From: Acidimicrobiales bacterium
GTDB lineage: Bacteria; Actinomycetota; Acidimicrobiia; Acidimicrobiales; SZUA-35
Direction of reading: 5' to 3'
NCBI GenBank assembly: GCA_013003535.1
Contig: JABDIY010000168.1
Location: forward strand, 1 to 41,954
Length of the DNA: 41,954 nucleotides
Positions 1 through 38,798 of this stretch are shown piece by piece. The stretch's first letter is position 1. Every line of letters starts with the position of its first letter. A model generated the notes under the pieces. That model saw nothing but the letters and a program-made list of their open reading frames with translations, was not told where the DNA came from and did no database searches. A program made the translations under genes and the position numbers.

Positions 1-3000
1 GCCAATGGTGTTCAGGATGTTGGAGAGCCCGGTATTGATGGTGTCGCTGTTTCGATCACTGGGCCGTCGGGGACATTGTCCACCACGACTTCCGGCGGCG
101 GGGCGTACAGTTTCGCGAGTTTGGTGCCGGGTGATTACACCCTGACGTTCACTGGCCCTGCTGGTTCAGCACCCACCGGAACCGATGTTGGTGGCGATGA
201 TGCGGTCGATTCCGACATCGATGGATCCGGTGTCGTCACGGTGACACTCGTTTCCGGTGATTCGGACACCAGTGTTGATGCTGGGTTTGTTACTCCGGCC
301 ACGATCGGGAACTTCGTATGGGACGACCTCGACGGCGACGGCATCCAGGGCTCCGGTGAGCCCGGGATTCCCGGAATAACCGTCGAACTCGTCGACGGTG
401 GTGGCGGCGTGGTGCAGACCACAACCACCGGCGGCACCGGTTCCTACCAGTTCACCAACGTTGCGCCGGGCACTTACACCGTCAGATTCAGCCCCGGCGG
501 TTCGTACCGGTTCACGGGGCAGACTCTGGGCGGAGACGGCAACTTGGACTCCGATCCGGACCAAACTACCGGAGTGTCCGACCCCTTCACCGTTACCTCG
601 GGAGAAGTTGCCGACTTCGTCGATGCGGGTCTTCTGGCCGACGCGTCAATCGGCAACCTCGTCTTCCTCGATCGCAATGACGACGGAATCCAGGACGCCG
701 GAGAACCCGGAGCGCCCGACATCACCGTCGAGTTGCTCGATGGCACCGGCACGGTCCTGGCAACGGTCCAGACGGCCAGTGACGGCACCTACTCATTCGA
801 CGGCCTCAACCCCGGTTCGTATCGGGTACGGGTGCCTGGCGCTGGACGGGTCTTCTCGCCGCAGGACGTTGGCGCCGACGACACCATCGACTCCGACGTA
901 GACGCCAGCGGCGTAACCGATCCGATCGTTGTCATTTCCGGCCAAGCGGATGCCACGGTTGACGTTGGCTTGCCCGTGGGCAGTATCGGAGACTTGGCGT
1001 GGCTGGACAACGTGGGTGACGGCGTGCTGGACGCCAGCGAATCCGGACTCGACGGAGTGACCGTTGAACTGCTCCAGGGTGGATCGGTCATCGCCACCAC
1101 CACAACTGCCGGCGGCGGTTTCTACCTCTTCGATCTCCTCCTTCCCGGCGATTACCAGGTGCGGGTGGCCGCCCCGGCTGGATACGTCTTCACTGGGCAA
1201 AGCCGGGGTGCGGATCCAACGATCGACTCCGACGTTGACAGCACTGGTCTCACCGGGGTCATCTCCGTGTCAACGGCCGATGATCTCACCGTGGCCGATG
1301 CTGGCCTGTTCCAGACCACGTCGGTCAGCAACTTCGTATGGGACGACCTCAATGGCAACGGTATCCAGGATGCCGGCGAGCCCGGAATCGATGGCGTAGT
1401 CATCGAACTGCGCGACTCCGATGGCGTGCTCGTTGACACCCAGACGACCGCAGGTGGTGGACTGTACGCGTTCACGGACCTCAACCCTGGAACCTTCACG
1501 CTTACGTTCAGCGCCCCGGCTGGGGCCGCCCCCACCGGGCGCGACGTCGGTGGCGACGATGCGGTGGACTCCGACATCACCGGCGCTGGCGTGGTTAGCG
1601 TCACGCTCAACTCGGGTGAAGTACCGGACACGATTGATGCTGGCTACGTCACCACCGCCACGCTCGGCAACTTCGTGTGGGATGACCTGGATGGCGATGG
1701 CGTGCAGGACGCCGGCGAACCCGGCGTTGGCGGGGTTGTCGTCGAATTGTTGAACGCCGCCGGCACACCGGTCACCAGCGTCGTGACCGCTGCTGATGGC
1801 AGCTACACGCTCGCGGGCGTCTTCCCCGGCACCTACACGATGCGCTTCACGGCCCCGGCCGGAACGAGCTTCACCACTGCGGACGTGGGAAGCGATGATG
1901 CGGTCGATTCCGATCCCGTACCGGTGCCAGCGACCGATCTCGGAGTCACGTCTTCCTTCACAGTGCAATCCGGCGACTCGATTACTTCAATCGATGCCGG
2001 CCTGTTGTTCGGTGCCACCATCGGCGACTTCGTCTTCAACGATCTCGACACGGACGGCATCCAGGATGCCGGTGAGCCCGGGGTCGATGGCATCGGTGTT
2101 CAGCTTCTTTCGGGAGCGACCGTCGTGGCCAGCACAACGACCTCTGGGGGTGGAGCGTATACGTTCACCAATGTCGTGCCGGGCACATACACCGTGCAGG
2201 TGTTGCTGCCTGTGGACGCAACGCCTACGACGGTCGACGTCGGGGCCAATGATGCCGTCGATTCGGATATCGATGGATCTGGCGCTGTGACGGTGACAGT
2301 CTCCTCAGGAGAATCTGTGGTCACGATCGATGCCGGCCTGATCTTCCCCGGCTCCATCGGCGACTTCGTCTTCGAGGACACCGATGGTGACGGCATCCAA
2401 GATGGCGGCGAGACTGGTGTCGGCGGCATCACGGTGAATCTGCTGGACGGTTCCGGCACCCAGATCTCAACCACGACGACGGCCGGAGACGGTTCGTACT
2501 CCTTCACCGACCTCGCACCCGGCGATTATCAGATCGAGTTCGTTCCCAGCGGCGTGTACGGCCTGGCTCCGCAGGACTCTGGCAGCGACGACGCCTTGGA
2601 CTCCGACGCTGATCCCAGCACTGGGCGGACCGCAGTCTTCACCCTGCTGTCGGACGAGGCGATCGACCACGTAGACGCCGGTGTTATTGCCGGTGGCTCA
2701 ATAGGCGATCGCATTTTCTTCGACGACGACGGCGACGGAATCGACAACGGCGAGCCTGGTGTTCCCGGCGCCACTATTGAGCTACTCAACGGCAGCGGTA
2801 CCGTCGTCGGAACCACGACCTCCGATGCCAACGGCAACTACACATTCGGCGGTCTGACCCCGAACCTCTACTCGATCAGGGTCACGAACCCGGGCGTGGT
2901 CTTCACCACCGCCAACGTGGGCGCTGACGACGATGTTGACAGCGATGCCGACGCTACCGGCACCACCAATGACGTGTTCCTCACCTCTGGTCTAGTGATA

Positions 3001-4350
3001 TCTAATCTCGACGTCGGCGTGCTGCCGTCGAGCATCAGCGATCTTGTTTTCACCGATACCAACGGCAATGGGCTTCAGGATGCCGGTGAGCCCGGCCTGG
3101 CTGGGGTCACCGTGGAACTGCTCGATGGCGCGGGAACACTACTTGCCACAACGACCACTTCGGCCAGCGGTTCCTACTCGTTCGATTTACTCTTGCCTGG
3201 TACGTATGAGGTGAGCGTTTCGATTCCCGCCGGCTTCGCTGCAACCGCGCAGAACGTTGGCACCGACACCGCGATCGACTCCAATATCGATGCTGCGGGC
3301 GACTCGGGCACCTTCACCCTGGCTGGCAACACCACCGATGACAGCATCGACGCCGGCCTCTACCAGTACGCCACGCTTGGCGACACCGTCTTCGTTGACC
3401 TCAACGATGATGGCGCTCAGACCCCCGGCGAACCCGGCGTCGACGGCCTGACGGTGAACCTGCTCCAGGGCGGGTCGACCGTGGATACAACTACCACGGC
3501 AGGTGGCGGGCTCTACAGCTTCACCGGTTTGATTCCAGGTGACTATGCCATCGAAGTGCTGGCTCCCGGCTTCACCTTCGTCGCCATGGACGCAGGGAGC
3601 GACGATGCCCTGGATTCTGATGTGGACGCCAGCGGCGTGAGCGCCGTGATCGCTCTGATCTCGGGTGAAACCAACACAACGATCGATGCCGGTGTGGCCC
3701 CTTCCACCATCGGTGACCTGGTATTCGACGATCTCAACGGGGACGGGATCCAAAACGGCCTGGACGCCGGCATCGATGGAGTTGTAGTGAACCTGCTGGA
3801 CGATGGCGGCAGTGTGATCGCCACTACTACCACCGCAGGTGGCGGGCTCTACAGCTTCACCGTTGCTCCCGGGACCTACGAGATCGAATTTGAAGCTCTG
3901 TCCGGGACGACGTTCACCGCTACCGATGTCGGGAGCGACGATGCTCTGGACAGCGACGCCGATCAGACCACCGGCCGTACCGGTCCGATTGTGGTGTCCG
4001 GTTCGGCCTCTATCGACACCGTGGATAGTGGCCTTGTCAGCCCCGCCACAATCGGTGACCTGGTTTGGCAGGACCTCAATGGTGACGGCGTGCGAGATGC
4101 CGGTGAACCCGGTCTCGATGACATCACCATCAACCTCCTCGATAGCGGCGGGGCAGTTATCGACTCCCAGGTCACCGCCGGGGGCGGTCTTTATGACTTC
4201 GCCGACGTAGCGCCCGGCACGTACACCGTGGACGTGGTCTCCGTACCCGGAGGATACGTCCTCACGACCACCGAGCCGCTCAGCGGCTTGACTGTCAGCT
4301 CCGGTCAGGACTACAACGCTGCCGACTTTGGCTATCAGCCCACCGGTTCG
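1..4350 (+). repeat. First SdrD_B-like repeat block (about 13 units)
   Basis: Coding repeats of about 110 residues. Each opens with a variant of [23 protein letters not shown] and ends with a D-A-G-L-like strand. I count 12 complete units plus the truncated one at the window edge. Each has a conserved D-x-G-x-D-D-A-x-D-S-D segment, typical of SdrD_B-type calcium-stabilised spacer domains. No cysteine was seen in this block. Unit 11 has an altered signature (N-G-L-D-A-G) and unit 8 a shortened loop, so units have diverged and the DNA copies are not identical. Confidence 0.85.
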
Positions 4351-7300
4351 ATCTCCATTGTGAAGGACCCTGCCACCCAGGACGTGGTAGTCGACGGTAC
4401 GGCGAACTTCACGATCACGTTGACCAATACGGGAAGCTCAACTCTCGGGAACGTCAGTGTCAGCGACCTGTTGGTACCAGCCTGTAACCAAACGTTCGCC
4501 GCCATGGCTCCCGGTGCGGTAGAGACGATTTCTTGTTCACTTACACCGGTCACCGCCGACTTCACCAACACCGCCACCGTGGCGACCACCGGTCCCGGCG
4601 GAATCAGCGTGACGGATACTGACACCGCCGACGTTGTGGTCCTGGTGCCCGGGATCGACATCCAGAAGACTCCGGATACGCAGACCGTTGTGGTCAACGG
4701 CTCCGCTGACTTCTCGATCACCGTTACGAACACTGGCGACACCGCGCTCACGAGTGTCACCGTGTCCGATCCGTCGGTTCCGGGCTGCGACCTGGTGATC
4801 GGTGATCTCGCCATCGGAGCGGATTCGACCCACACATGTTCGCTGAGCGGTGTGACGTCGGACTTCACGAACACGGCCTCTGTTTCGGCGCTTGATCCGA
4901 TCGGCAACTTCACGGGCGATACCGACACGGCATTTGTCGATGTCATCACTCCGCGGGTGACGATCTCCAAGACCCCCGACACCCAGAGCGTGGCCCCGAA
5001 CGGAACGGCGAACTTCACCATCACGGTCACCAACACCGGAGATGCTGACCTTACCAATGTGACGGTAAGCGATCCGCTCAGCCCGGACTGCGACTCCGTT
5101 GTCGGATCGCTGGCCGTTGGTGCCAGTGCGTCATACGCCTGCTCGCTCACCAATGTTTCCAGCGGTTTCACCAACACAGCTACCGTCACCGCTCAAGACC
5201 CCACTGGCGGTTCAGTGTCCGATAGCGACACCGCCGAGGTCCTGCTACTCGCTCCCTCGGTTGGCATCGCGAAGGACACAACAACACCAACGATCGTCAG
5301 TGGCGATGTCGCCAACTTCAGTATCACAGTCACCAACAACGGTGATGCCCCGCTTTCGGCGATCTCGGTCTCAGATCCGACCGCTCCAAACTGTGACATC
5401 ACGATCGCCAACCTGGCCGTCGGCGAATCCCAGACATATACCTGTGACTCCGAGGTGGCCACTGCGGACTTCACCAACACCGCCAACGTTACGGCCTTCG
5501 ATCCGGTGGGCAATGTGCTCACCGCGAGCGACAGCGTCGATGTCGCCGTAATCAATCCCGATATTCAAATCGTCAAAGACCCCGCCACCCAGGGAGTTGC
5601 ACCCGGTGGTACCGCCAACTTCACGATCACGGTCACCAATACCGGAGACTCGGTCTTGAGCAACGTGGTCGTAAGCGACCCGCAGGTCCCGGCCTGTGAC
5701 TTCACGGTGGCCAGCCTCGCCGCCGGTGCCGACGCCCAGAACACCTGCTCGCTCACCGGAGTGACCGCCAGCTTCACCAACAATGCCAACGTCTCCGCCA
5801 CCGATGAGAGCGGTGCCACGGTGTTCGATAGCGACACGGCCTTTGTGCAGACCCTCTCGCCGAGGATTTCGATAACGAAGAACCCTGCAACGCAGCAGAT
5901 CCAAAGCGGCGGCACCGCCACCTTCTCGATCACCGTGGCGAACACTGGCGACGCCGATCTTACTAACGTCTCTGTCAGCGACGCTTTGGCACCGAACTGT
6001 GACACGACCATCGGCCAGCTGCTCGTCGGCCAATCCCAGACCTACACCTGTGACATTGCCGGTATAGCGGTGGACTTCACCAACACCGCAAGCGTTAGTA
6101 GCGAGGATCCCGCCGGCAACGTGGTGAGCGATAGCGACACCGCCGACGTAGACGTGATCAACCCGTCCATCTCGATAGCCAAAACCCCCGACACTCAAGA
6201 CGTGCTTCCCGACGGTACGGCAACGTTCACCATCACGGTCACCAACACAGGCGACGTGCCGCTCACCGGCGTGACGGTCAGCGATCCCATGTCGGCCAAC
6301 TGCAACAACAACATCGGTGATATGGCGATAGCCGAAGTGGTTACCTACACCTGCACCCGGACCAACGTGACCGGAGACTTCACGAACACCGCCAACGTCA
6401 CGGGAACCGACCCGATCTCGGGGACCGTCAGCTCCAGTGACACCGCCGACGTCACCCTGATTGTCCCCGGCATCACGATCGAGAAGACCACCAGTACGCC
6501 TCAGGTGGTTGTCGGAGGCGACGCCACGTTTACTATCACGGTTACCAACAGCGGCACGGCCCCACTAGATCCAGTGGTCGTCTCCGACTCGCAAGCGCCG
6601 GATTGTGCTCGAAACCTCGGCGCTATGGTCGCCGGAGCCGTGGTGAGTTATGACTGCACCCTGGTCGGAGTACTCGGCGACTTCACCAACTCGGCTACCG
6701 CCACCGGTACCGACGCCTCAGGAAGCGACGTGACGAGCACCGACACCGCAGCTGTTGATGCGATCTCCCCGGAGATCCTGGTGTCGAAGACTCCTGACAG
6801 CCAGTCCGTGATCGTCAATGGTCAGGCGACGTTCACGATCACGGTCACCAATGTTGGTGACGTGCCCCTGACCGACGTGACCGTTTCCGACCCACTCGCA
6901 CCGAACTGTGACAGCGTCATCGGTGACCTGCCCGCGAGTACATCCACCAGCTATGACTGCACGCTGTCGCCGATTACGGGCGACTTCACCAACACCGCGA
7001 ATGTCAGCGGCACCCATCCGGTGTCCGGCCCGGTCCAGTCCAGCGACACCGCCGACGTCACAGTGCTGACCCCGGCGGTCAACATTACCAAGACGACGTC
7101 TACCCCGACCGTTCGTTATGGCGCCGATGCGACCTTCGACATCGTGGTCACCAACTCCGGTCAAACCGACCTGGCCAACGTGGTGGTCAGCGACCCGCAG
7201 GCACCAGACTGTGATCGCACGTTTGCGGCCATCGCCCTAAGTGCCAGCGAGTCCTACTCCTGCACAATGACAAACGTGACCGCTCCCGTGACCAACACGG

Positions 7301-10300
7301 CCACCGTGAACGCCGAAGACGCCGTCGGAAATACGGTGTCCAGCAGCGATGATGCCAGCGTTGACGTGATCGACCCCACCATCGAAATCCAAAAGACTCC
7401 GGATCTGCAGCAGCTACTCGCTGGGGAAACCGCAACATTCGACATCACGATCACCAATCAGGGCGACGTGGCATTGACCGCGATCAGTGTGACCGATCCG
7501 GCCGCTCCCGGTTGTGATCAGGCGGTTCCGGATCTTGCCCCAGGAGCCAACTTCACCTACACCTGCACCCTCGACAATGTGACCTCCGATTTCACGAACA
7601 CCGCCGTGGTCGATGCCACCGATCCGCTGGGGCTTTCCCTGAGCGACTCCGACGACGCAGTAGTGGACGTGGTCAATCCAGGCATCGACATTCAGAAAAC
7701 GCCTGACGGCCAGATGATCCTTGACGGTGGCGTCGCTACATTCACGCTGACCGTCACGAACAACGGCGATCAGGACATCGCGGATGCCAGTATTTCGGAT
7801 CCGGCTGCTCCCCTGTGTGACGTGGCATCAACCGGCCCGATCGCCGTAGGCGGTACGTTCTCGATCACCTGTGACTCGCCGGCCCTGACCGATGACATTG
7901 TGAACGTTGCAACGGTTGACGGGAGCGATGTTCTGGGCAACCCAGTTTCGGCATCCGACGACGCTGCGGTCGACGTGATCCATCCGGGTATAAGCGTGGA
8001 CAAAACCCCCGATGCGCAGGCCGTGGTGGTCAATGGCACCGCCAACTTCGTGATCACGGTTGCCAACACGGGTGACGTTGACCTCACCACTGTCACCGTC
8101 TCAGATCCGCAAGCCCCAGACTGTGACGCGGTAATCCCGCTGCTCGCGGCCGGAACATCATCCACGATCAACTGCTCTCTCTCGCCAGTGCCGGCAGACT
8201 TCACCAACACCGTCGACGTCACCGGAACCGACCCGTTGGACAATGAGTTGACTGCCAGCGATACCGCCGATGTAACCGTACTGGTACCCGGACTCAGCGT
8301 CTCCAAGGGTCCGGACTACCAGGTCATCCCAGTAAACGGTGACGCCACTTTCACTATCACGGTCACGAACTCCGGACAAACCCCGTTGGCCAACGTCGTG
8401 TTGGACGACCCGCTTTCTCCGGTGTGTAACAGCACAATCGCCGCTCTTGCGGTTGGCCAGACCTCCAGCTACGACTGCACGGTCACCACGGTTGCCTCGG
8501 ACTTCATCAATGAGATCACGGCCACCGGAACCGACCCGGTGGGGGGAACGGTCACCAGTACCGACGACGCCATAGTTGATGTGATCGCGCCGGCGATCAG
8601 CATCGAGAAGACTCCCGACACCCAGACCATCCTGGCGGGCAGCGACGCGACCTTCACCATCACCGTGACAAATATCGGAGATGTGGCCCTCACCGGCGTC
8701 ACCGTTACCGACCCGGCCACACCGGCCTGTGATCTACTGATTGGCGACCTCGCACCTGCAGCAGATTCTATGTACACCTGCGTCCAGAACGGTGTTACTG
8801 CATCGTTCACGAACCAAGCTGACGCCACCGCCTCGGATCCCGCCGGCGGCACGGTCACCGACTCTGACACAGGCGACGTCGTGGCCATCCAGATCGGATC
8901 GGTCACCGGGCTGGTCTTCCTTGACGCTGATGCCGACGCCCTTTTCAACAACAGCGACACACAGCTCGGCACCGTTCAGGTGAATCTGATCGATGGTGCG
9001 GGCAACATATTCGCAATTACGACTACCGAACCCGACGGGTCGTATACCTTCCTTGATGTGCCCGTCGGGGACTACACCGTTGACGTTGTCGAGAACGATC
9101 CCAACATTCCGGCCGGCAGCATTCTTACCACCGCCAACGATCCCCAGCCCGTGACCGTAGTGGCGAATAGCCAGACCACCGGAACCGATGTTGGATTCGC
9201 ACCACCCTCGATTCTCACCGGCCGGGCGTTCAACGACGCCGACAGCAACGGCGTAGATGGTGGCGAGCCCGGAGTTGGTGCAGTAACGGTGAACGTGTGG
9301 CGTGACACCACCGGTGACGGCACGCCGGACACCGTTGTGGGTTCCACACTTACGGCTTCCAACGGCACCTGGACGGTTGACGCACTTCTCGCCGGTACCT
9401 ACGCCGTCGAGTACGTGACCCCGGCGGGTCAGGTTGTCACCTTGCAAGACGTTGGGAGCGACGACACCGTCGATTCCGATATCGATCCGATCACGGGCTT
9501 CACTTCGGAGATCGCCCTCGCTACGGGCACGACCATCGGTGACCTGGACGCGGGCTACTACCCGCCGGCTACCATCGGCGATCTAGTGTTCTCCGATGCC
9601 GATGGCAACGGGATCTTTGACAGCGGTGAAGTTGGTCAGGGTGGCGTCAATGTGGTGGCCACCTGGGCCGGCCCGGACGGCACGCTCGGTAACGGCGACG
9701 ACCAGACCTTCAGCACAACATCTGCTTCCGACGGCTCTTATCAGATCGCCGGACTGCCGGGTGGGGTTTACTCGGTCATCGTGATCGAACCGCTGGGCTC
9801 GACGGTTACCACGGGCAACGATCCGATTCAGATCACGCTGCCCACCGGTGCGGTGAACAACGATATTGACTACGGACTCGACGGAAACGGCGTGGTTGGC
9901 GGGTCCGTATACGTGGACACGGACAATGACGGCATCAAGGATGTTGGTGAGGCCGGGTTGGAGAACGTGGCCATCACCCTGACGGGGAATGACGCCAATG
10001 GTGTTGGCGTGTCATTGAGCACCGTCACGGACATCAACGGTGACTACATCTTCGCCAACCTCAATGGTGGCACGTACACCATCACCGAGGCCCAGCCCAG
10101 CGCGTTCTTGGATGGCATCGACACTGTCGGTACCGCTGGCGGCGACAACTCGGTCAATGATGTAATCAGCAACGTAGTGTTGCCGCTGAACTTCAGCGCC
10201 TTCGGCTACAACTTCGGCGAAATCGCACCCTCGAGCCTCAGCGGCACGGTGCGCCTCACCTCCGGCGAGCCGATCCAGGGTGTCACCATCACCCTCACTG

Positions 10301-12042
10301 GTACCGATGATCTAGGCGCCACCGTGAACGCGTCGGTCGTGACCGGACCCGACGGTCTGTTCACCTTCGCTACACTTCGGCCCGGGAATTACACCGTGAC
10401 CGAAACCCAACCCGTCATCTACGGCGAGGGTGGGGAGACGGCAGGAACTGCAGGCGGCGACACAGCCACCAACGTCATCTCCAATATCCTGTTGATCTCG
10501 GGCACCACTGGCACCGACTATGTGTTCGCTGAAACCAGTGCGCTTCTCAGCGGTACGGTCTACTCCGACGTAGACAACTCGGGCACGCTGGACGCCGGTG
10601 AGAACGGCATTCCCGGCGTAACCCTCACCTTGACCGGGACCGATCTCAACACCAACCCGGTCTCGATGAACACTTTGACCGCGGCCGACGGGACCTATTC
10701 CTTCGGTGGTCTCCTGCCCGGGACCTACACGATCACCGAGCTCCAGCCTGTGGCGTACGCCGATGGTGCCGAGACGGTAGGGTCGCTGGGCGGCGACGCC
10801 TCGGTCAACGATCGGATCAGCGCGATCAACGTGCTTGCCGGTGAAACCGGAACCGGATACAACTTCGGCGAAACCGGCACCGTCGTCACGGGCAGTGTCT
10901 TCCTGGACCTCAACGCGGACGGAACCAACAACGCTGGCGACACCCCCTTGGCCGGAGTCATCGTCGAACTGCTCGATGCCGCCGGCAACCAGGTGGCTGT
11001 GACGTCCACTACTTCCACCGGTGACTACAGCTTCAGCGGTCTCTTCCCGGGCAACTACATCGTTCACGAAATTCAACCCGCCGAGTGGGGCAGCACAACT
11101 CCGAACGAGATCCTCTTCACCCTTACCACGGCGGGCGCCAGCGGATTGGACTTCGGCGAGAAGGCCGGCTCGATCAGTGGTGTGGCCTTCGCCGATGATG
11201 AGTTCGATGGAATCAGCTCGGGCGACGTAGCTGTTCTTGGCGTGACGGTCAACTTGGTGGACAGCTCCGGTGCCACTGTTGCCACAGCCACTACCGATGG
11301 GGATGGTGCGTATGCGTTTACCAGTCTCCCTGCAGATACCTACGCCGTAGTTATCACGCCCCCGGCAGGGTCGACGTTCTCGCCGGCCGACGTGGGTAGC
11401 GACGACACGATCGATTCCGACTTCGATCCCAGCAGCGGCAGTACTCTGGTTTCGCTCACCGGTGGACAAGACGTAGAGAATGTCGATGCCGGTCTCACGC
11501 CGATCAACCACGATGCTGGTGTGGTTGTGACCGTTCCGGAGACCACCTACCGGGTGAACGAAGACGTGCCGTTCACCGTGGTTGCCACGAACAACTCCAA
11601 CGTTGCGGTTGACGGCGGGTTGAAGTTGGTGATGACCGTGCCCTCAGATGTCGTGGTGATCTCGGCCGTGGCCGACGGATGGACCATCACCCAGACTGGC
11701 ACCGTCCTCACCGCAACCTTCGCTGAGCCTCTGGCACTCAATCAGGCAGCTCCGCTGATCGTGATCACCATGCAACGGCCAACAGCCGGAGCCCTGTCGC
11801 TCGACGCAACCGTTTCTTTCCTCGATCCGACGATCGACGATGACAATGCCAACAACGATGCTTCGGCCGCAGCCGTGACCGTGACACCGCCCAACCGTTT
11901 GCCCGTGCCTACGCCGTCGCTACCGGTGACCGGCGTGACGACGGCACTGCTGTTGATCGTAGGCGGGTTCTTCCTCTTCTCCGGCAAGAGCCTCACCTTC
12001 TTCGCCGGCCGAACTCGCAAAGAGGACGACGAAGAGTCCTGA
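1..12042 (+). CDS. Giant LPXTG-anchored repeat surface protein (5' partial)
   Basis: The reading frame is open from the first base, so the gene begins upstream. The TTG at 76 lies inside a repeat and is not the true start. The window holds about 4013 codons. Order: SdrD_B-like beta-sandwich repeats with D-x-D-x-D-G calcium-loop-like motifs and a G-x-x-D-A-G-E-P-G signature; 15 DUF11-like repeats; a second block of SdrD_B/Cna_B-like repeats; one further DUF11/CARDB-like domain (about 11506-11880); then LPVTG, a hydrophobic segment and a charged tail. The protein is therefore probably exported and held in the envelope, by a sortase or by its membrane segment. No sortase gene is in the window. 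Cysteines were seen only in the DUF11 block. It is convergent, 4 nt apart, with a thioredoxin/DsbB pair. Role (adhesion, surface layer, stalk) is not determinable. Architecture is certain; function is open. Confidence 0.93.
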   Translation, partial: ANGVQDVGEPGIDGVAVSITGPSGTLSTTTSGGGAYSFASLVPGDYTLTFTGPAGSAPTGTDVGGDDAVDSDIDGSGVVTVTLVSGDSDTSVDAGFVTPATIGNFVWDDLDGDGIQGSGEPGIPGITVELVDGGGGVVQTTTTGGTGSYQFTNVAPGTYTVRFSPGGSYRFTGQTLGGDGNLDSDPDQTTGVSDPFTVTSGEVADFVDAGLLADASIGNLVFLDRNDDGIQDAGEPGAPDITVELLDGTGTVLATVQTASDGTYSFDGLNPGSYRVRVPGAGRVFSPQDVGADDTIDSDVDASGVTDPIVVISGQADATVDVGLPVGSIGDLAWLDNVGDGVLDASESGLDGVTVELLQGGSVIATTTTAGGGFYLFDLLLPGDYQVRVAAPAGYVFTGQSRGADPTIDSDVDSTGLTGVISVSTADDLTVADAGLFQTTSVSNFVWDDLNGNGIQDAGEPGIDGVVIELRDSDGVLVDTQTTAGGGLYAFTDLNPGTFTLTFSAPAGAAPTGRDVGGDDAVDSDITGAGVVSVTLNSGEVPDTIDAGYVTTATLGNFVWDDLDGDGVQDAGEPGVGGVVVELLNAAGTPVTSVVTAADGSYTLAGVFPGTYTMRFTAPAGTSFTTADVGSDDAVDSDPVPVPATDLGVTSSFTVQSGDSITSIDAGLLFGATIGDFVFNDLDTDGIQDAGEPGVDGIGVQLLSGATVVASTTTSGGGAYTFTNVVPGTYTVQVLLPVDATPTTVDVGANDAVDSDIDGSGAVTVTVSSGESVVTIDAGLIFPGSIGDFVFEDTDGDGIQDGGETGVGGITVNLLDGSGTQISTTTTAGDGSYSFTDLAPGDYQIEFVPSGVYGLAPQDSGSDDALDSDADPSTGRTAVFTLLSDEAIDHVDAGVIAGGSIGDRIFFDDDGDGIDNGEPGVPGATIELLNGSGTVVGTTTSDANGNYTFGGLTPNLYSIRVTNPGVVFTTANVGADDDVDSDADATGTTNDVFLTSGLVISNLDVGVLPSSISDLVFTDTNGNGLQDAGEPGLAGVTVELLDGAGTLLATTTTSASGSYSFDLLLPGTYEVSVSIPAGFAATAQNVGTDTAIDSNIDAAGDSGTFTLAGNTTDDSIDAGLYQYATLGDTVFVDLNDDGAQTPGEPGVDGLTVNLLQGGSTVDTTTTAGGGLYSFTGLIPGDYAIEVLAPGFTFVAMDAGSDDALDSDVDASGVSAVIALISGETNTTIDAGVAPSTIGDLVFDDLNGDGIQNGLDAGIDGVVVNLLDDGGSVIATTTTAGGGLYSFTVAPGTYEIEFEALSGTTFTATDVGSDDALDSDADQTTGRTGPIVVSGSASIDTVDSGLVSPATIGDLVWQDLNGDGVRDAGEPGLDDITINLLDSGGAVIDSQVTAGGGLYDFADVAPGTYTVDVVSVPGGYVLTTTEPLSGLTVSSGQDYNAADFGYQPTGSISIVKDPATQDVVVDGTANFTITLTNTGSSTLGNVSVSDLLVPACNQTFAAMAPGAVETISCSLTPVTADFTNTATVATTGPGGISVTDTDTADVVVLVPGIDIQKTPDTQTVVVNGSADFSITVTNTGDTALTSVTVSDPSVPGCDLVIGDLAIGADSTHTCSLSGVTSDFTNTASVSALDPIGNFTGDTDTAFVDVITPRVTISKTPDTQSVAPNGTANFTITVTNTGDADLTNVTVSDPLSPDCDSVVGSLAVGASASYACSLTNVSSGFTNTATVTAQDPTGGSVSDSDTAEVLLLAPSVGIAKDTTTPTIVSGDVANFSITVTNNGDAPLSAISVSDPTAPNCDITIANLAVGESQTYTCDSEVATADFTNTANVTAFDPVGNVLTASDSVDVAVINPDIQIVKDPATQGVAPGGTANFTITVTNTGDSVLSNVVVSDPQVPACDFTVASLAAGADAQNTCSLTGVTASFTNNANVSATDESGATVFDSDTAFVQTLSPRISITKNPATQQIQSGGTATFSITVANTGDADLTNVSVSDALAPNCDTTIGQLLVGQSQTYTCDIAGIAVDFTNTASVSSEDPAGNVVSDSDTADVDVINPSISIAKTPDTQDVLPDGTATFTITVTNTGDVPLTGVTVSDPMSANCNNNIGDMAIAEVVTYTCTRTNVTGDFTNTANVTGTDPISGTVSSSDTADVTLIVPGITIEKTTSTPQVVVGGDATFTITVTNSGTAPLDPVVVSDSQAPDCARNLGAMVAGAVVSYDCTLVGVLGDFTNSATATGTDASGSDVTSTDTAAVDAISPEILVSKTPDSQSVIVNGQATFTITVTNVGDVPLTDVTVSDPLAPNCDSVIGDLPASTSTSYDCTLSPITGDFTNTANVSGTHPVSGPVQSSDTADVTVLTPAVNITKTTSTPTVRYGADATFDIVVTNSGQTDLANVVVSDPQAPDCDRTFAAIALSASESYSCTMTNVTAPVTNTATVNAEDAVGNTVSSSDDASVDVIDPTIEIQKTPDLQQLLAGETATFDITITNQGDVALTAISVTDPAAPGCDQAVPDLAPGANFTYTCTLDNVTSDFTNTAVVDATDPLGLSLSDSDDAVVDVVNPGIDIQKTPDGQMILDGGVATFTLTVTNNGDQDIADASISDPAAPLCDVASTGPIAVGGTFSITCDSPALTDDIVNVATVDGSDVLGNPVSASDDAAVDVIHPGISVDKTPDAQAVVVNGTANFVITVANTGDVDLTTVTVSDPQAPDCDAVIPLLAAGTSSTINCSLSPVPADFTNTVDVTGTDPLDNELTASDTADVTVLVPGLSVSKGPDYQVIPVNGDATFTITVTNSGQTPLANVVLDDPLSPVCNSTIAALAVGQTSSYDCTVTTVASDFINEITATGTDPVGGTVTSTDDAIVDVIAPAISIEKTPDTQTILAGSDATFTITVTNIGDVALTGVTVTDPATPACDLLIGDLAPAADSMYTCVQNGVTASFTNQADATASDPAGGTVTDSDTGDVVAIQIGSVTGLVFLDADADALFNNSDTQLGTVQVNLIDGAGNIFAITTTEPDGSYTFLDVPVGDYTVDVVENDPNIPAGSILTTANDPQPVTVVANSQTTGTDVGFAPPSILTGRAFNDADSNGVDGGEPGVGAVTVNVWRDTTGDGTPDTVVGSTLTASNGTWTVDALLAGTYAVEYVTPAGQVVTLQDVGSDDTVDSDIDPITGFTSEIALATGTTIGDLDAGYYPPATIGDLVFSDADGNGIFDSGEVGQGGVNVVATWAGPDGTLGNGDDQTFSTTSASDGSYQIAGLPGGVYSVIVIEPLGSTVTTGNDPIQITLPTGAVNNDIDYGLDGNGVVGGSVYVDTDNDGIKDVGEAGLENVAITLTGNDANGVGVSLSTVTDINGDYIFANLNGGTYTITEAQPSAFLDGIDTVGTAGGDNSVNDVISNVVLPLNFSAFGYNFGEIAPSSLSGTVRLTSGEPIQGVTITLTGTDDLGATVNASVVTGPDGLFTFATLRPGNYTVTETQPVIYGEGGETAGTAGGDTATNVISNILLISGTTGTDYVFAETSALLSGTVYSDVDNSGTLDAGENGIPGVTLTLTGTDLNTNPVSMNTLTAADGTYSFGGLLPGTYTITELQPVAYADGAETVGSLGGDASVNDRISAINVLAGETGTGYNFGETGTVVTGSVFLDLNADGTNNAGDTPLAGVIVELLDAAGNQVAVTSTTSTGDYSFSGLFPGNYIVHEIQPAEWGSTTPNEILFTLTTAGASGLDFGEKAGSISGVAFADDEFDGISSGDVAVLGVTVNLVDSSGATVATATTDGDGAYAFTSLPADTYAVVITPPAGSTFSPADVGSDDTIDSDFDPSSGSTLVSLTGGQDVENVDAGLTPINHDAGVVVTVPETTYRVNEDVPFTVVATNNSNVAVDGGLKLVMTVPSDVVVISAVADGWTITQTGTVLTATFAEPLALNQAAPLIVITMQRPTAGALSLDATVSFLDPTIDDDNANNDASAAAVTVTPPNRLPVPTPSLPVTGVTTALLLIVGGFFLFSGKSLTFFAGRTRKEDDEES
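4351..8895 (+). repeat. DUF11-like repeat block, 15 units of about 303 bp, each with a Cys pair
   Basis: Fifteen consecutive units of about 101 residues. Each opens with a variant of I-x-I-x-K-T-P-D-T-Q and continues with A-T-F-T-I-T-V-T-N-T-G-D and V-S-D-P. Every unit has exactly two cysteines, in the form C-D-(x15)-C. The spacing is C-x16-C in 14 units and C-x17-C in unit 12. The second cysteine is usually followed by a D-F-T-N-T strand. DUF11 is a known bacterial surface-protein repeat family. A disulfide within each unit is inferred from the invariant spacing. Confidence 0.88.
8896..11505 (+). repeat. Second SdrD_B/Cna_B-like repeat block (about 8 units)
   Basis: After the DUF11 block the protein returns to SdrD_B-like units, but more heterogeneous ones. 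Three middle units (about 9890-10880) carry a longer T-L-T-G-x-D insertion and end in G-Y-N-F-G-E or a close variant, resembling Cna_B-type prealbumin-like domains. The unit near 10240 lacks the acidic D-x-D-x-D loop. The last unit, near 11170-11500, returns to the D-V-G-S-D-D-T-I-D-S-D form of the first block. No cysteine was seen here. Confidence 0.78.
11920..12039 (+). other. C-terminal LPVTG sorting signal, membrane segment and charged tail
   Basis: L-P-V-T-G is encoded at 11920-11934. It is preceded by a Pro/Thr linker and followed by about 17 hydrophobic residues, then a tail mixing R/K with D/E that ends the protein. This is the classical order of a sortase sorting signal. The tail is longer and more acidic at its very end (E-D-D-E-E-S) than in a textbook signal. 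Confidence 0.85.
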
Positions 12043-12046
12043 CGCG

Positions 12047-12829
12047 TTATTCGGCGCTAGTGGAATTGTCGCCTTCACTCTCGACGGAGTCGGTAGTAGC
12101 ACCGGCGGCGAGGTTGTTCCACAGCTGGAGTGTGATGCTCTCGTCGAGCTGGCCGGCGCTTCGGGTCAGCACGCGATTGTCGCCGTCGAGGTACACGACA
12201 TACGGGAAGCTTTGCCCGCCCATGCTGTTGAATGCGATACTGGCGGCGCTGTCACGCATGGTGGGTACCGTCCAGTTCTCCCGGTTCAGCCAGGTCTCGG
12301 GCGGATAGTTCGCCCCGGGCTGTTCAACGTTGACACCGGTGGACACGGCGTAGAGGTCGATTTCGTCGGGCTTTTGACCAGTGTCGATGAGGTTCTGAAT
12401 CACCGGCACTTCCTGCTGACAGAACTGGCAGAAGTGGGCCAGGAAATAGACTGCTTTGGGTCGACCGTCGGGTCCGATCTGGATCTCTTCCTCATCGAAG
12501 GTGGTTCCGATGAGGGTGGGGGCTACTTGGCCGATCACTCCATCGTTGGAAATGTCGGTCACGGACACGCCAGCGTCGCTGGGGTAATCCGGAATCGGTG
12601 ATCCCTCGACGGTCACATCGGAAACTTGGGGTCCGCTGGCCAGATCGGTGTCCCGATTGGTGGCGAGGAAGGCCACGGCACCGAGCCCCACAACCACCAG
12701 AGCGATGATGGCGATGGTGAAACCGCGCCCGGAGCTGTCGTTGGCGGTTATCGCAGGGGCCGAGACCTTCCCAGGGGTGGTGGGCGCCTTGAAGGTCTGC
12801 TTGTTTTTGGGGGTTGTGGGCGAGGACAT
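12047..12829 (-). CDS. Membrane-anchored thioredoxin-fold protein (DsbA/TlpA-like)
   Basis: 260 aa. A cytoplasmic N-terminus rich in Pro, Thr and Lys is followed by one membrane segment (about residues 37-56) and an extracytoplasmic domain. The redox motif C-Q-F-C is at residues 134-137, after a beta strand, and a Phe-Pro pair near residue 208 fits the cis-proline loop of the fold. The gene starts immediately after the stop of the DsbB-family gene (TAG then ATG, no gap), so the two are translationally coupled. The likely role is thiol oxidation of exported proteins, with electrons passed to the neighbouring DsbB-like protein. A reductive TlpA/ResA-like role cannot be excluded, but pairing with a DsbB favours oxidation. 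It converges with the giant Cys-paired surface protein. Confidence 0.85.
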   Translation of the reverse strand: MSSPTTPKNKQTFKAPTTPGKVSAPAITANDSSGRGFTIAIIALVVVGLGAVAFLATNRDTDLASGPQVSDVTVEGSPIPDYPSDAGVSVTDISNDGVIGQVAPTLIGTTFDEEEIQIGPDGRPKAVYFLAHFCQFCQQEVPVIQNLIDTGQKPDEIDLYAVSTGVNVEQPGANYPPETWLNRENWTVPTMRDSAASIAFNSMGGQSFPYVVYLDGDNRVLTRSAGQLDESITLQLWNNLAAGATTDSVESEGDNSTSAE

Positions 12830-13348
12830 CTACGCCACCTTTCGTGTATTGAGAAGAATCAGGGTGATGACCCCGGCGAAACCGATGCCCGCCATGGTGG
12901 GGATAGTGATGAAGCCGAACTCGTTGATCCAGCGAACCGAGCACGGGTTGTTCACGTCGCAGAACGTGCCGCTCTCACCGATGTACTGGTCATAGCGATG
13001 GTAGGCCGAAACGACGATGCCGAACGACGCGAGCCCGAGGGCAATCCACTTCAGAGCGGCCACCTTTGTGAACACCGCGATGATGAGGATGATTGCCGCT
13101 GGATACATGAAGAAGCGCTGAACCCAACACAGCCGGCACGCCGTGTAGTTGGCAATTTCTGACATGTACAACGAGCCGAGCATGCAGGTTGTGGCAATCG
13201 CTGCCGCCAGTTCCAGCGACACCGGCTTGAGCGTCCGGGCAACTCCGAGGGAACCCGAGGTCGCCAGGTCAGCGATGATGCCAACGATCCCAGCAACCAC
13301 CAAAAGGCTCAACAATGCGAAGAAGAACGAAACGAACTGGGGAGTCAT
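12830..13348 (-). CDS. dsbB: DsbB-family disulfide bond formation protein
   Basis: 172 aa with about four membrane segments. The DsbB signature C-R-L-C-W-V-Q-R is at residues 71-78. A second cysteine pair (C130 and C136) lies in the next extracytoplasmic loop, as in DsbB, where it exchanges with the soluble partner. DsbB reoxidises the thiol oxidase and passes electrons to quinone. The stop codon abuts the ATG of the downstream thioredoxin-fold gene, so both form one operon. Start chosen at the first ATG, which fits the first membrane segment. In this family the alternative is VKOR, but the C-x2-C-x2-Q-R motif marks DsbB. Confidence 0.88.
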   Translation of the reverse strand: MTPQFVSFFFALLSLLVVAGIVGIIADLATSGSLGVARTLKPVSLELAAAIATTCMLGSLYMSEIANYTACRLCWVQRFFMYPAAIILIIAVFTKVAALKWIALGLASFGIVVSAYHRYDQYIGESGTFCDVNNPCSVRWINEFGFITIPTMAGIGFAGVITLILLNTRKVA

Positions 13349-28806: not shown

Positions 28807-30378
28807 ATGCCAACAGGGGAATTGCCGCAACCTTCCCCGTCGCTGATGGTCGCCGATCCTTTCTCAACTTCAAAGTCTCAACCGTCCGGCAAACGGTCGC
28901 TGCGGACGCTTGCCCTAGCGTGCTCTTTTCTTGCCGTGCTCCTTGTGGGGGCGGTACTGCCCGCTCCGGTGGCGGCAGTCGACGATGGAGCAGCCCGACA
29001 CGCCGGGCTCCTCGTGCCGGTCTACGAAGAGGACGTTCCGCCCGAGGTGCAGGTGGTGGTGGACGATGTCATGCACGAGCTCAGCACGCTCATCGCCTTC
29101 AATCCTGCCGGTCCGGCGCAGATCCAAGTCGCATGGAGCAACATTGCGTCGCTGGGTCTGGGTGGGCCGGTGTTGATACAGGCGGACGGAATCAACTACC
29201 CCGCAGCCCTGGCCGACACGTTGTTCGGGGGCCAGCACGCCCGAGGAGGTGTGGATGGTTTCGTCACCATGGGATCGGGCCATCAGTGGTACTTCGGGCT
29301 CGATGGCAAGACCCCGAGCAATCAATTCGATTTTCGTTCGGCCTTCGCCCACGAGCTGATCCACGCGCTGGGCTTCACTCTGGAAACTTCGCCGTTCAAC
29401 GGCGGCGTTGTGCTGTCGGGCCGCACGACACAGTTTGATCGCAATCTTTTTTCGGGCGGCCGTCGGCTGATAGATATGACGACCAGTGCCCAAGCGGCGG
29501 CCTTCGAAGCCGACGACGTCTGGTTCGATGTTGGGGGAGGGCGCCTGTACCCCGTGGAATCGGCCGGAGGAAGCGGCCAGTCTCACTTCGGGTTTGCTCA
29601 TTCGCTGGTGGACAACGAACCCGGTGCCATGATGTATGGGGGTTTGTTGAACGGTTTGAGCCGGCAGATCGATGGACCCACGCTTGGAGCGTTAGCCCAG
29701 ATTGGCTATCCCCTCACGGCCGCCCCCGCTTCGCTGGTGACGGCAAGTCTCCAAGGACAGTCATTGCGCTGGTCGGTCGAGCTCGGTGGTCCGGTTGCCC
29801 CCCCATCAGTTGTGAGAATTGAGCAGCAGCGGCGCGGCGTGACGGTGTGGTCAGCCGATGTGAGTGGCGCGCTGGCCCAGTACACACTGCCAGCGGCCAC
29901 CGCGTTCGACGCCGTTCGGCTCACAGCAATTTCGAGCGACGGCGTCTCCAGCCCTGCGATAGTGGTGCCCGTCTCAGGCGCCAATACGATCGCAGATGCC
30001 ACTTCGCTCGATGACATTCTCAGGGCCGACGATTACCGGCGAGAGCACGCAGGTGTCCTGCGCTTGTATTGGGCCTTCTTCAACCGTGAACCTGATCTGG
30101 GTGGCGCGCGATACTGGCTCTCGGTGTTTGACCAAGGCGCTTCGCTCGACGCCATAGCCAATGCCTTCGCAGGCTCGTCAGAGTTTCGTGCTCGCTACGG
30201 TGCGTTGAACAACGCTGCCTACGTTGAAGTCATCTATCTGAACGTTCTGAATCGCCGCCGCGACGGCGGTGGGTTCCAGTACTGGCTGGGATTCCTCGAG
30301 AACGGCGGGTTGAGCCGTGGGGGCGTGGTGCGGTGGATCGCCGCCGCACCGGAATTCGTTGCTGCTCATCCGTATTGA
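28807..30378 (+). CDS. Secreted zinc-metalloprotease-like protein with C-terminal DUF4214
   Basis: 523 aa. A basic N-terminus and hydrophobic segment (about 31-57, ending A-P-V-A-A) form an export signal. The zincin motif H-E-L-I-H is at residues 182-186 in A-H-E-L-I-H-A-L-G-F, without the third His of classic metzincins in the usual place. A later S-H-F segment, shared with the paralogue at 32907, could supply a metal ligand. The C-terminus (about 415-520) is a DUF4214 domain, with L-Y-W-A-F-F-N-R-E-P-D-L-G-G and Y-W-L-S-V-F, a module found on secreted proteins. Substrate unknown. An in-frame ATG at 28846 is a possible alternative start. Confidence 0.78.
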   Translation: MPTGELPQPSPSLMVADPFSTSKSQPSGKRSLRTLALACSFLAVLLVGAVLPAPVAAVDDGAARHAGLLVPVYEEDVPPEVQVVVDDVMHELSTLIAFNPAGPAQIQVAWSNIASLGLGGPVLIQADGINYPAALADTLFGGQHARGGVDGFVTMGSGHQWYFGLDGKTPSNQFDFRSAFAHELIHALGFTLETSPFNGGVVLSGRTTQFDRNLFSGGRRLIDMTTSAQAAAFEADDVWFDVGGGRLYPVESAGGSGQSHFGFAHSLVDNEPGAMMYGGLLNGLSRQIDGPTLGALAQIGYPLTAAPASLVTASLQGQSLRWSVELGGPVAPPSVVRIEQQRRGVTVWSADVSGALAQYTLPAATAFDAVRLTAISSDGVSSPAIVVPVSGANTIADATSLDDILRADDYRREHAGVLRLYWAFFNREPDLGGARYWLSVFDQGASLDAIANAFAGSSEFRARYGALNNAAYVEVIYLNVLNRRRDGGGFQYWLGFLENGGLSRGGVVRWIAAAPEFVAAHPY

Positions 30379-31368: not shown

Positions 31369-32883
31369 TTAGGCGTCCAAAAATTCCGTTAACGCCACCC
31401 GGCCCACTCTGGCCCCGACGGCCTGCAAGGCAGCGTAGTCGCCGGCTGCCTGGGCCGCCTTGAGCTGGCCAAAGGTGAAGGGTTGGTCCGGAATGGCCAC
31501 ATCGGTCCGGTCCTCACCCACGATCTGTAGGGCAACAAATCGGTACGGTTTCCCCTTGTGGAGTTGCCCGGTGGAGTGGAGGTAGCGCGGGCCGATCCCC
31601 ATGGTGGTAGCGACGCCAAACCGTTGGCCTAGCTCGTGGAGCTTTCGAGTGACCTTGTCAACCGTGCCCGACGCAGGGTCCACGTACGCGCACAGGTTGA
31701 TGTAGTCGCCGGGCGCGAGGAGCGACAGCATCTGCGGAACCGGTACGAGCGGAATGTGTGGAATGCCAGACTTGAGGACATGATCGGTGGCCGCTTTGGC
31801 GGCAGCGACGTTGGGCTGGTCGAAAGGGTTGACGCCAAGAACCGCTCCCGCCACTGCGGTGGCAAACTCCCAGAGGAGAACTTGGGCACCGATATCGGTG
31901 CTCTCGGTCAACGGGATGGACACCATCGGCGCCGCCGCAGGAATCTGCTCGAGGCCAGGCGGTGAGCCGATGACCACGAAAAACCGGTCGTCACCGTAGG
32001 CCGCAGCGTTCACCGGCTCGTCCACGATCGGGATGATCCCTTCACCGTGTTTTCCGGTGGACTCGGCCAGGAGTTGCTCCAGCCATACACCGAGGTGCTG
32101 GGCCGATGGATCGACCAAGATCGTGCACTTGTCCCGGCCCAATTGTGCCGCCACCGCAATCGATGCCCCCAGGAGAACAGCCGGATTGGAGCTCTCTGGC
32201 CCATGCAATGCCGGGACGAGTTCACGAGCGGAGCCGAGCAGCTTGGCAATCGGTGCGCCTACCAGCGCACCGGGCATCAAGCCGAAATAGGAGAGCGCCG
32301 AAAAGCGGCCGCCGATGTCAGAACGATTCTGGAAGACTCGGCGGTAGCCGTGTTGATCGGCCAGCGTAATCAAGGCCGATCCTGGGTCGGTGATCACGGT
32401 GAACTGCGGACCCCGCTGGAGCCGACTCCAAAAGGTGGCCAGTTGGCTCGTGGTCTCCACCGTTGACCCGGACTTCGAGGCCCCTATGAACAGGGTGTCG
32501 GTGATTTGGCGGTCGGACAGGACCCGATCGATCGCCGCGGGATCCGTGGTATCCACCACCGTCAGAGCGAGGCCTTCGCACGTGGCAAACGTTTTGGCGA
32601 GTACCTCGGGGAACAACGTCGAGCCGCCCATACCGCAGATAACCGCTTTGCTCATTCCGTCGGCTTGAACCCCTGCGGCAAACATCTCCATCTCCGAGAC
32701 GGCCCCGTTCATCTCATCCAAGAGGTGGAGCCAGCCCAATCGATCGCTGATCTCGGCAGGGTCGGAGGACCACAGTGTGTGATCTCCATCCCAGATCCGG
32801 CTTACCGCGTCGCTCTCCGTGAGGGTCTGGACAGCGGTTGTTACCGCTTCATGTATTGGGCCCAGAGACAATGTCAGTTCCAT
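31369..32883 (-). CDS. pgi: Glucose-6-phosphate isomerase, actinobacterial Tal-Pgi-like type
   Basis: 504 aa from the ATG at 32883. The two SIS-type sugar-isomerase domains show A-V-I-C-G-M-G-G-S-T-L-F, then G-A-S-K-S-G-S-T-V-E-T, and near the end G-I-G-P-R-Y-L-H-S-T-G-Q-L-H-K-G. This resembles the Pgi part of bifunctional transaldolase/glucose-6-phosphate isomerase, here stand-alone, rather than the E. coli-type Pgi. It interconverts glucose-6-phosphate and fructose-6-phosphate. The open frame upstream of 32883 runs into the divergent neighbour and has no family similarity. It shares an overlapping divergent promoter with the metalloprotease gene. Confidence 0.92.
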   Translation of the reverse strand: MELTLSLGPIHEAVTTAVQTLTESDAVSRIWDGDHTLWSSDPAEISDRLGWLHLLDEMNGAVSEMEMFAAGVQADGMSKAVICGMGGSTLFPEVLAKTFATCEGLALTVVDTTDPAAIDRVLSDRQITDTLFIGASKSGSTVETTSQLATFWSRLQRGPQFTVITDPGSALITLADQHGYRRVFQNRSDIGGRFSALSYFGLMPGALVGAPIAKLLGSARELVPALHGPESSNPAVLLGASIAVAAQLGRDKCTILVDPSAQHLGVWLEQLLAESTGKHGEGIIPIVDEPVNAAAYGDDRFFVVIGSPPGLEQIPAAAPMVSIPLTESTDIGAQVLLWEFATAVAGAVLGVNPFDQPNVAAAKAATDHVLKSGIPHIPLVPVPQMLSLLAPGDYINLCAYVDPASGTVDKVTRKLHELGQRFGVATTMGIGPRYLHSTGQLHKGKPYRFVALQIVGEDRTDVAIPDQPFTFGQLKAAQAAGDYAALQAVGARVGRVALTEFLDA

Positions 32884-32890
32884 GTCAGCG

Positions 32891-32900
32891 AGCCTACGCT
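32891..32900. promoter_or_regulatory. Overlapping divergent -10 elements of pgi and the metalloprotease gene
   Basis: In AGCCTACGCT, the minus-strand TAGGCT (32896-32891) and the plus-strand TACGCT (32895-32900) share two bases. Each is followed by the proper leaderless spacing: 7 nt to the pgi ATG (32883) and 6 nt to the GTG at 32907. The two predicted starts are 24 bp apart with no other space for separate promoters. Confidence 0.6.
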
Positions 32901-32906
32901 CTAGGG

Positions 32907-35340: not shown

Positions 35341-36210
35341 GTGACTGAGATCCCAGAGCATCTGCTCAAGCGCTCCAAGGCGCGAAAAGGTACCCCGGCC
35401 GGCGATGATGCCTCCGCCGCAGCCAGCGCCAGCACCGCAGTTACCCCGACCGAGAGTTCCGGCCCCGCCCAGCCGCCAGCCATACGGGAGGCGGCCGCGG
35501 CGATTCCACGGGACCCCGCACCTGTTGCTCCGAAACCTGTACCGCCGTATGTGCAGGCCGCTCGGACTCGCAAGAAGATGCCCATGTGGGCCATGGCAAT
35601 CATTCCTTTCTTCACGTTGTTGTGGGCATACAGCTTTGCAGGCACCATGCAGCAGCCCGATGTGGAGGACCCGCTCTTCACGGAGTCGGCGGCTCTCTAC
35701 AGCAGCGAGGGTTGCGCCGGTTGTCACGGCGCCGGCGGTGGTGGTGGTGTGGGCTATGCGTTCTCCGACGGCGAGATCTACACCACGTTCCCCGCTCCTA
35801 TCGATCAGATGGTGCATATCGCTCGAGGGTCGGCGGCCATCGCCGGTTCACAATATGGAGATCCGGATCGCGCTGGCGGCGCCCGAGTAGCCGGCAACCG
35901 TGGCGTGATGCCCAACTATCCCAGCCTTACTCAGAACCAGCTGGAGTTGATCGTGTTCCACGAACGAGCCACGCTGGGCGGCGAACCTACCGATAGTCCC
36001 GCCTACCAGGAGTGGATGGATCACATGCGTGAGGTCGAGGAGGGCAACGCTCCCGATCACGAAATCGACCTCGAGCTTTTCCTTAGCTGCGCCAACCCCG
36101 AGTTCACTCCCGAAGCAACCGGTGATGCCGGTGACGGCAATTTGGAGGAGAGAAATGATCTCTGCCCTGGTCCCCACGTCGAGGCCGACGAAGAAGTTGC
36201 GGCCGGATAA
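35341..36210 (+). CDS. Membrane-anchored monoheme cytochrome c of the bc operon
   Basis: 289 aa. An N-terminal motif T-E-I-P-E-H-L-L-K-R-S-K (residues 2-13) is followed by an Ala/Pro-rich segment (about 17-75), one membrane segment (about 81-100) and a cytochrome c domain. Heme attachment is C-A-G-C-H at 125-129, followed by a glycine run. Met190 in G-V-M-P-N-Y-P is the likely axial ligand. The tail after about residue 240 is acidic, with two further Cys. It probably takes electrons from the Rieske protein of the complex or passes them onward. The same N-terminal motif appears in the cytochrome b C-terminal subunit of this operon. GTG start, 7 nt after TACACT. Confidence 0.88.
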   Translation: MTEIPEHLLKRSKARKGTPAGDDASAAASASTAVTPTESSGPAQPPAIREAAAAIPRDPAPVAPKPVPPYVQAARTRKKMPMWAMAIIPFFTLLWAYSFAGTMQQPDVEDPLFTESAALYSSEGCAGCHGAGGGGGVGYAFSDGEIYTTFPAPIDQMVHIARGSAAIAGSQYGDPDRAGGARVAGNRGVMPNYPSLTQNQLELIVFHERATLGGEPTDSPAYQEWMDHMREVEEGNAPDHEIDLELFLSCANPEFTPEATGDAGDGNLEERNDLCPGPHVEADEEVAAG

Positions 36211-36312
36211 GCCCCTGATTTTCTTCCGTGTTCCCCCCGTCCGATCGCTTGTGCAAAGATTCACAAAGTCTTAGGCTGTTAGTAGAAGCCGGAATATGAG
36301 GTCGTTTCCACC

Positions 36313-36756: not shown

Positions 36757-36757
36757 C

Positions 36758-37174: not shown

Positions 37175-37214
37175 TTTTCCGCTCAAACGATTTCCCGACT
37201 GAAAGTCCAACCAA

Positions 37215-38006: not shown

Positions 38007-38024
38007 GCAAAGGCTGTAACACCA

Positions 38025-38786: not shown

Positions 38787-38798
38787 AAGGACCCTGCT

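Follow-up and report, generated by a model that had tools for sequence, protein, structure and literature searches.

Paired cysteines and a predicted isopeptide triad in each unit of a CLIPPER-type domain array in a giant surface protein of an Acidimicrobiales bacterium, with a probably accidental dsbB-trx neighbour

The 3' part of a gene for a giant surface protein opens positions 1 to 41,954 of contig JABDIY010000168.1 (contig C91) from an Acidimicrobiales bacterium (assembly GCA_013003535.1), and this whole 41,954-nucleotide stretch is referred to as the window in this paper. The protein carries an array of 15 repeated domains with one pair of cysteines each, and its gene converges with genes for a disulfide oxidase (dsbB) and a thioredoxin-fold protein (trx). 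We propose, with a probability of roughly 0.73, that the array forms the stalk part of a fibrillar surface protein anchored by a sortase, in which each of the 15 immunoglobulin (Ig)-like CLIPPER/CLIPPER_2 units would be closed by two independent covalent locks. A Lys6-Asn74 isopeptide bond would be formed by the domain itself with Asp40 as the catalyst, and a Cys46-Cys63 disulfide, stapling one beta-hairpin, would be made after export by the general DsbB and TlpA-type thioredoxin-fold pair of the cell, the adjacency of the dsbB-trx operon to the giant gene being accidental.

Frame 1 of the window is open on the forward strand for 4013 residues until a stop at position 12042; since the window and contig C91 begin at the same base, the gene lacks its 5' end and only its 3' part is contained here. 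Its features are as follows.

1..12042, forward strand: giant surface protein gene, 3' part (translation; LPVTG, hydrophobic segment and basic tail at the C-terminus)
1..4302, forward strand: 13 SdrD_B-type repeats without Cys and without Lys (PF17210 matches, residue positions)
4348..8895, forward strand: array of 15 DUF7507/DUF11 (CLIPPER_2/CLIPPER) units, each with C46-C63 and K6/D40/N74 (Pfam, alignment, residue count)
4483..4536, forward strand: Cys pair of unit 1, C-x16-C (residue count)
7816..7872, forward strand: Cys pair of unit 12, the sole C-x17-C (residue count)
8905..11871, forward strand: C-terminal part, SdrD_B (8 matches) and a final DUF11 domain, no Cys (Pfam, residue count)

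A program count found 30 Cys in the frame, which form 15 pairs between residues 1495 and 2927; all of them fall within the array (residues 1450-2965, 37.8% of the frame), and the chance of such an outcome for 30 randomly placed Cys is about 2e-13. The residue distance within a pair is 17 in 14 units and 18 in unit 12, and the spacing between successive pairs is 84 residues; the units are 101 residues long (102 in unit 12), with a mean pairwise identity of 49% among the 14 ungapped ones, so that the pairs recur every 303 nucleotides, and once after 306, following the extra residue of unit 12. The count confirms the original prediction, made by a model from the sequence, that each of 15 units holds two Cys, as C-x16-C in 14 and as C-x17-C in one. 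The protein ends, as judged by eye, in LPVTG-VTTALLLIVGGFFLFSG-K...RTRK, that is, an LPxTG motif, a hydrophobic segment and a basic tail, and two sortase matches (PF04203) are found in the genome of the window (G000). Many of the SdrD_B repeats N-terminal to the array contain DxNxDG-type loops, which may be Ca-binding-like.

As to the nature of the units, Pfam matched PF24346 (DUF7507) in 15 stretches of the frame with 331.8 bits and PF01345 (DUF11) in 16 stretches with 282.3 bits, while the flanks of the array matched SdrD_B in 21 stretches. DUF11 (PF01345) and DUF7507 (PF24346) were renamed in 2025 as CLIPPER and CLIPPER_2, respectively (PMC12617251); that paper describes the solved structure of one DUF11 domain, in which a Lys-Asn isopeptide bond stands with an Asp as the putative catalyst, and gives disulfides beside isopeptides in 29.7% of the CLIPPER and 34.9% of the CLIPPER_2 domains. 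Lys6, Asp40 and Asn74 are present in 15/15 units of our array, with a Lys-to-Asp distance of 34, compared with 33 in the solved domain by the residue numbers of that paper, and these columns are presumably the structural equivalents of the published triad. Furthermore, we surveyed the units at 70 loci of other genomes (59 from a named genome collection and 11 from relatives; 66 distinct), where 674 unit matches were left once four duplicate-contig loci had been dropped. Many matches begin after column 6, hence only 343 of the 674 have letters in all three columns, and 285 of these keep the triad. It is kept in 215/243 units with both Cys, in 44/59 with neither and in 26/41 with one, which indicates that the triad is independent of the Cys pair. 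A two-unit structure model built on a 69-row alignment (pLDDT 97.8, pTM 0.83) has eight strands in the first unit, and the best matches listed by a fold search with this model are Ig-like or beta-sandwich tandems (Z about 10, rmsd 5 to 20). The crystal entry of CLIPPER, 9IFR, was absent among the 50 matches listed in either fold search, which excludes nothing. In addition, the array proteins of G034, G020, G028 and G007 end, by eye, in LAxTG-type signals. A paper on cysteines in DUF proteins (PMC12828279) was set aside; its relevant passages concern other DUF1... families, with nothing on DUF11 among them.

The evidence for a disulfide in each unit comes from the survey and from the model. Of the 674 matches, 78 cover a unit only in part; the other 596 were scored, a deviation of three columns being allowed, and both Cys were present in 399, neither in 163, the second only in 20 and the first only in 14, so that 562/596 units have both or neither. 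This co-occurrence of the two Cys supports a disulfide between them, and shows the C-x16-C pair to be a trait that these domains either have or lack as a pair. The number of residues between the two Cys is 16 in 267/399 pairs and ranges from 12 to 32. In the model, C46 stands at the end of a short turn directly before strand 48-53, and C63 lies in strand 58-68; the two are taken as lying on two strands of one hairpin, which would fit a cross-hairpin staple. The positions of insertions were considered as further evidence for the staple and rejected, since the alignment spreads the length changes between the Cys over positions 47-59 and not over the turn alone, so that they are neutral either way. 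The claim of up to 15 intradomain disulfides is thus supported, though not proved, by the co-occurrence of the Cys and by the predicted hairpin. The counts alone would also be compatible with inter-molecular or inter-domain disulfides that cross-link the fibres; however, the two Cys co-occur within a unit even at loci with a single unit or hardly more, and both lie on the same hairpin in the model, and we consider cross-linking of this kind very improbable.

The genes that converge with the giant gene on the reverse strand are the following.

12047..12829, reverse strand: membrane-anchored TlpA/ResA-type thioredoxin-fold protein, CQFC (sequence, alignment, model)
12830..13348, reverse strand: DsbB/BdbC-type disulfide oxidase, Cys pairs CRLC and CDVNNPC (Pfam, sequence)

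Only 4 nucleotides lie between the stop of the giant gene at 12042 and the end of the thioredoxin-fold gene at 12047, and the description of a convergence at this distance with a DsbB-type oxidase and a C-Q-F-C thioredoxin-fold protein was found to be correct. The 172-residue DsbB matches PF02600 with 34.5 bits (cut-off 22.1, E 3e-8), and its best NCBIfam match, PRK03113.1, stays under the cut-off of that family. No other DsbB match was found in the genome of the window, which is 95.8% complete and in which VKOR likewise gave no match. Its partner, a protein of 260 residues, carries a single N-terminal helix with the length of a membrane helix, and was modelled with a TlpA/ResA-type thioredoxin fold, the best match being 4nmu (Z 17.9, rmsd 2.4, 138 residues aligned); no DsbA structure was among the 50 fold matches listed, which does not exclude one. 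The active site is CQFC, as against the CPHC consensus of 29 aligned sequences. Judging from the model, this TlpA/ResA-type partner may serve as the DsbA equivalent here.

A rival reading, which builds on the locally encoded oxidation system of the original prediction, takes the dsbB-trx operon for a dedicated folding system of the giant protein, kept adjacent for co-inheritance. Three observations speak for it: only 4 nucleotides separate the converging genes, 15 disulfides would make the giant protein a large client, and the neighbouring dsbB encodes the sole oxidase found in the genome. The neighbourhoods in relatives contradict it, however. The linkage between dsbB and DUF11-Cys giants that was suggested as a check was not found, as none of 28 dsbB neighbourhoods of relatives (flanks of at most about 10 kb in either direction, many of them truncated where a contig ends) contains array units, and none of the 70 unit-bearing loci contains a DsbB by a profile made from acidimicrobial DsbBs, VKOR not having been tested there. 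The trx gene, on the other hand, adjoins dsbB in 27 of these 28 neighbourhoods, the contig ending at that point in G009. Among the genomes of the four congeners, no dsbB was found in G003 and G004; in G001 and G002, pccB is also beside dsbB, and dsbB-trx runs into a keto-acid dehydrogenase operon, where the E1-alpha, E1-beta and E2 genes directly follow the thioredoxin-fold gene. Furthermore, the giant gene and dsbB-trx converge and therefore do not form one operon, and a second DUF11 protein with regular Cys pairs is encoded on contig C18 of the same genome, whereas the only DsbB match is on C91. The dsbB-trx pair is conserved without the giant gene, and no other oxidase system was detected in the genome. 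A dedicated local system is unsupported, and we judge it highly improbable.

At the level of genomes, dsbB is present in 53 of 99, and unit matches are associated with DsbB over these 99 genomes (p 0.005), a unit being called in this test by its profile match irrespective of its Cys. Within the family of the window's genome, DsbB is found in 26/30 genomes with units and in 7/9 without (p 0.61), which again gives no support to a dedicated system; outside the family p is 0.56, and when VKOR is counted as well p is 0.51. Since the association vanishes both within and outside the family, we read it as shared ancestry.

In another genus, an array gene of G020 (contig C270, L086) and ggdef-mcm-hbd are some 6 kb apart, and their orientation matches that of the window; with two cases only, it is possible that the methylmalonyl-CoA mutase cluster marks an old position of the giant gene. 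Either a loss of the giant in the congeners or a gain in the lineage of the window would fit.

Several results weigh against the doubly locked stalk or its proposed oxidation. A sequence search with one unit for a solved relative gave no hit, the 15-row unit profile gave three hits among the solved structures (best E 0.14), and the 69-row tandem profile gave 11, of which the best, 9ncf_S ('Immunoglobulin-like domain protein'), is weak (E 0.0019). A single Cys occurs in 34/596 units. A tree of 567 distinct units, among them the 15 from the window, implies 25 changes; 10 hit both Cys at once, which speaks for a bond, but 13 touch one only and 2 swap them. When cost is reckoned per site, both Cys account for 9/26, one only for 16/26 and a swap for 1. 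This tree was midpoint-rooted, so the direction of the changes is uncertain. Finally, the best-match loci of 30 genomes were typed, and 28 of these genomes hold at least one paired-Cys unit; 19 of the 28 have DsbB, 2 have VKOR only and 7 have neither (G007, G010, G023, G042, G060, G064 and G079, with listed completeness of 81 to 96%), so that the proposed enzyme step is not general. Missing contigs or an unrecognised oxidase could lie behind these seven genomes. They also lend some weight to the idea that the Cys remain reduced, or that they coordinate a metal or some other ligand. Nevertheless, a two-Cys site with a spacing of 12 to 32 does not resemble a metal site, the array having no more than 3 His, and thiols exposed on the outside of a cell that has respiratory genes would be prone to oxidation; we regard this explanation as very improbable.

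Apart from the 15 at position 6, the array has no lysines; the remaining 2497 residues of the frame hold five. Similarly, position 6 accounts for 180/180 Lys in the matched units of 12 other frames (L085-L088, L105-L107, L109-L111, L115 and L117), for 197/198 when L116 is added, and for 212/213 when the window is added too; these 13 frames were chosen post hoc from the table as the nearest to the window. Among the other frames in this table, which printed only those with at least six units, the bias is weaker or absent (L119 6/6, L090 8/9, L089 7/9, L133 12/18, L100 7/15, L153 1/63), and over all 674 unit matches the share of Lys6 is 339/759. The frames that show the restriction are poor in Lys overall, so the effect is partly one of composition. 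It might be that Lys and Cys, near-exclusive to the cross-link sites in the window and the nearest arrays, are reserved for covalent locks, and that some genomes oxidise the pairs without DsbB or VKOR by means of an unrecognised oxidant, but we offer this idea tentatively and think it rather unlikely.

Some further DUF11-type proteins were seen along the way. The protein on contig C18 of the window's genome (L165, 3966-6905, reverse strand) has 980 residues and a Cys pair per repeat, with Cys distances that alternate between 27-28 and 92-95; towards its end, a run rich in Asp precedes an Arg-rich terminus. Arrays that lack the Cys pair almost or wholly were found in L153, L157 and L158 (Lachnospiraceae), L156 and L161 (Salinibacterium), and L159 (PHSC20C1); the frames of these six are 3837 to 4883 residues long and contain 0 to 10 Cys, and a single unit with the pair occurs in L156 and another in L161.

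The missing 5' part of the giant gene is probably located on contig C194 of the same genome. This contig encodes a 954-residue ORF (open reading frame) with a signal-like N-terminal segment (by eye) and two DUF11 domains, which leaves the contig in the middle of an SdrD_B match that is weak (22.2 bits) and under the cut-off. Beyond the ORF lie three keto-acid dehydrogenase genes, for E1-alpha, E1-beta and E2; E1 was named through Pfam on the G002 copy, and E1-beta and E2 by eye, with E2 cut at the end of the stretch read. They are 69%, 78% and 59% identical to the corresponding genes of G002, compared with 31 to 44% for the paralogues on contig C165. With the gene order of G001 and G002 in mind, and with C194 and C91 in an orientation consistent with the two ends of one gene, the two contigs probably hold the ends of a single giant gene located between trx and the dehydrogenase operon. 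This link is based on synteny and not on sequence overlap, as neither an exact overlap nor a shared 15-, 21- or 31-mer was found in the 600 bases beside the break. The C194 ORF contains 8 in-frame Cys, of which 6 follow the signal-like segment. Therefore, the earlier statement that the protein has no Cys outside the array is true of the in-window frame, where the program count over 4013 residues found none, but, provided that the two contigs do belong together, would fail for the complete protein.

Giant adhesins and actinobacterial pilins that combine isopeptide and disulfide bonds are already in print (PMC10619420, PMC3485203). The likeness of our array to CLIPPER/CLIPPER_2 (PMC12617251) lies in the Pfam matches, the Lys/Asp/Asn triad and a tandem stalk in a long surface protein; the CLIPPER crystal structure, however, has a CTTC disulfide in the last strand, whereas C-x16-C is predicted across an earlier hairpin in 15/15 units of the window. 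The giant adhesin of Mobiluncus mulieris (PMC10619420), with 7651 residues, 51 Ig-like domains, and ester, isopeptide and disulfide bonds, is likewise a giant LPxTG-type protein of tandem Ig-like domains, for which an isopeptide and a disulfide bond have been shown in one domain, and its domains were compared in that paper with the isopeptide/ester domains Spy0128 and Cpe0147; it differs by its ester bonds and a thioester head domain, the array of the window being flanked by SdrD_B instead. The Actinomyces pilins FimP and FimA (PMC3485203) are sortase-anchored actinobacterial surface proteins with isopeptide and disulfide bonds as well, but they are small polymerised pilins rather than a giant single chain. 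Finally, Actinomyces oris MdbA (PMC5478893) is a cell-wide exported thiol-disulfide oxidoreductase that folds the subunits of surface fibres, in the manner proposed here for the general pair, although the window has a DsbB with a TlpA/ResA-type partner and the client relation is only putative.

Farther downstream, the window encodes two secreted-looking proteins with DUF4214 repeats (28807-30378 and 32838-35228, both forward strand), which carry HELIHALGF and HEIAHGMGF, respectively, the second having fn3 as well; their HExxHxxGF motifs are presumably zinc-protease-like. These are followed at 35341-41251 (forward strand) by genes that by eye resemble those of a cytochrome bc complex, with CxxCH cytochromes, fragments of cytochrome b and a Rieske protein, together with a ferredoxin.

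These results would extend the doubly cross-linked stalk, with an isopeptide and a disulfide bond per unit, to giant proteins in the family to which the genome of the window belongs. They also remove as unsupported a tempting reading of the gene neighbourhood, in which a dsbB gene stands beside a giant one, and point to genomes that encode paired-Cys domains and yet have no recognised disulfide oxidase.

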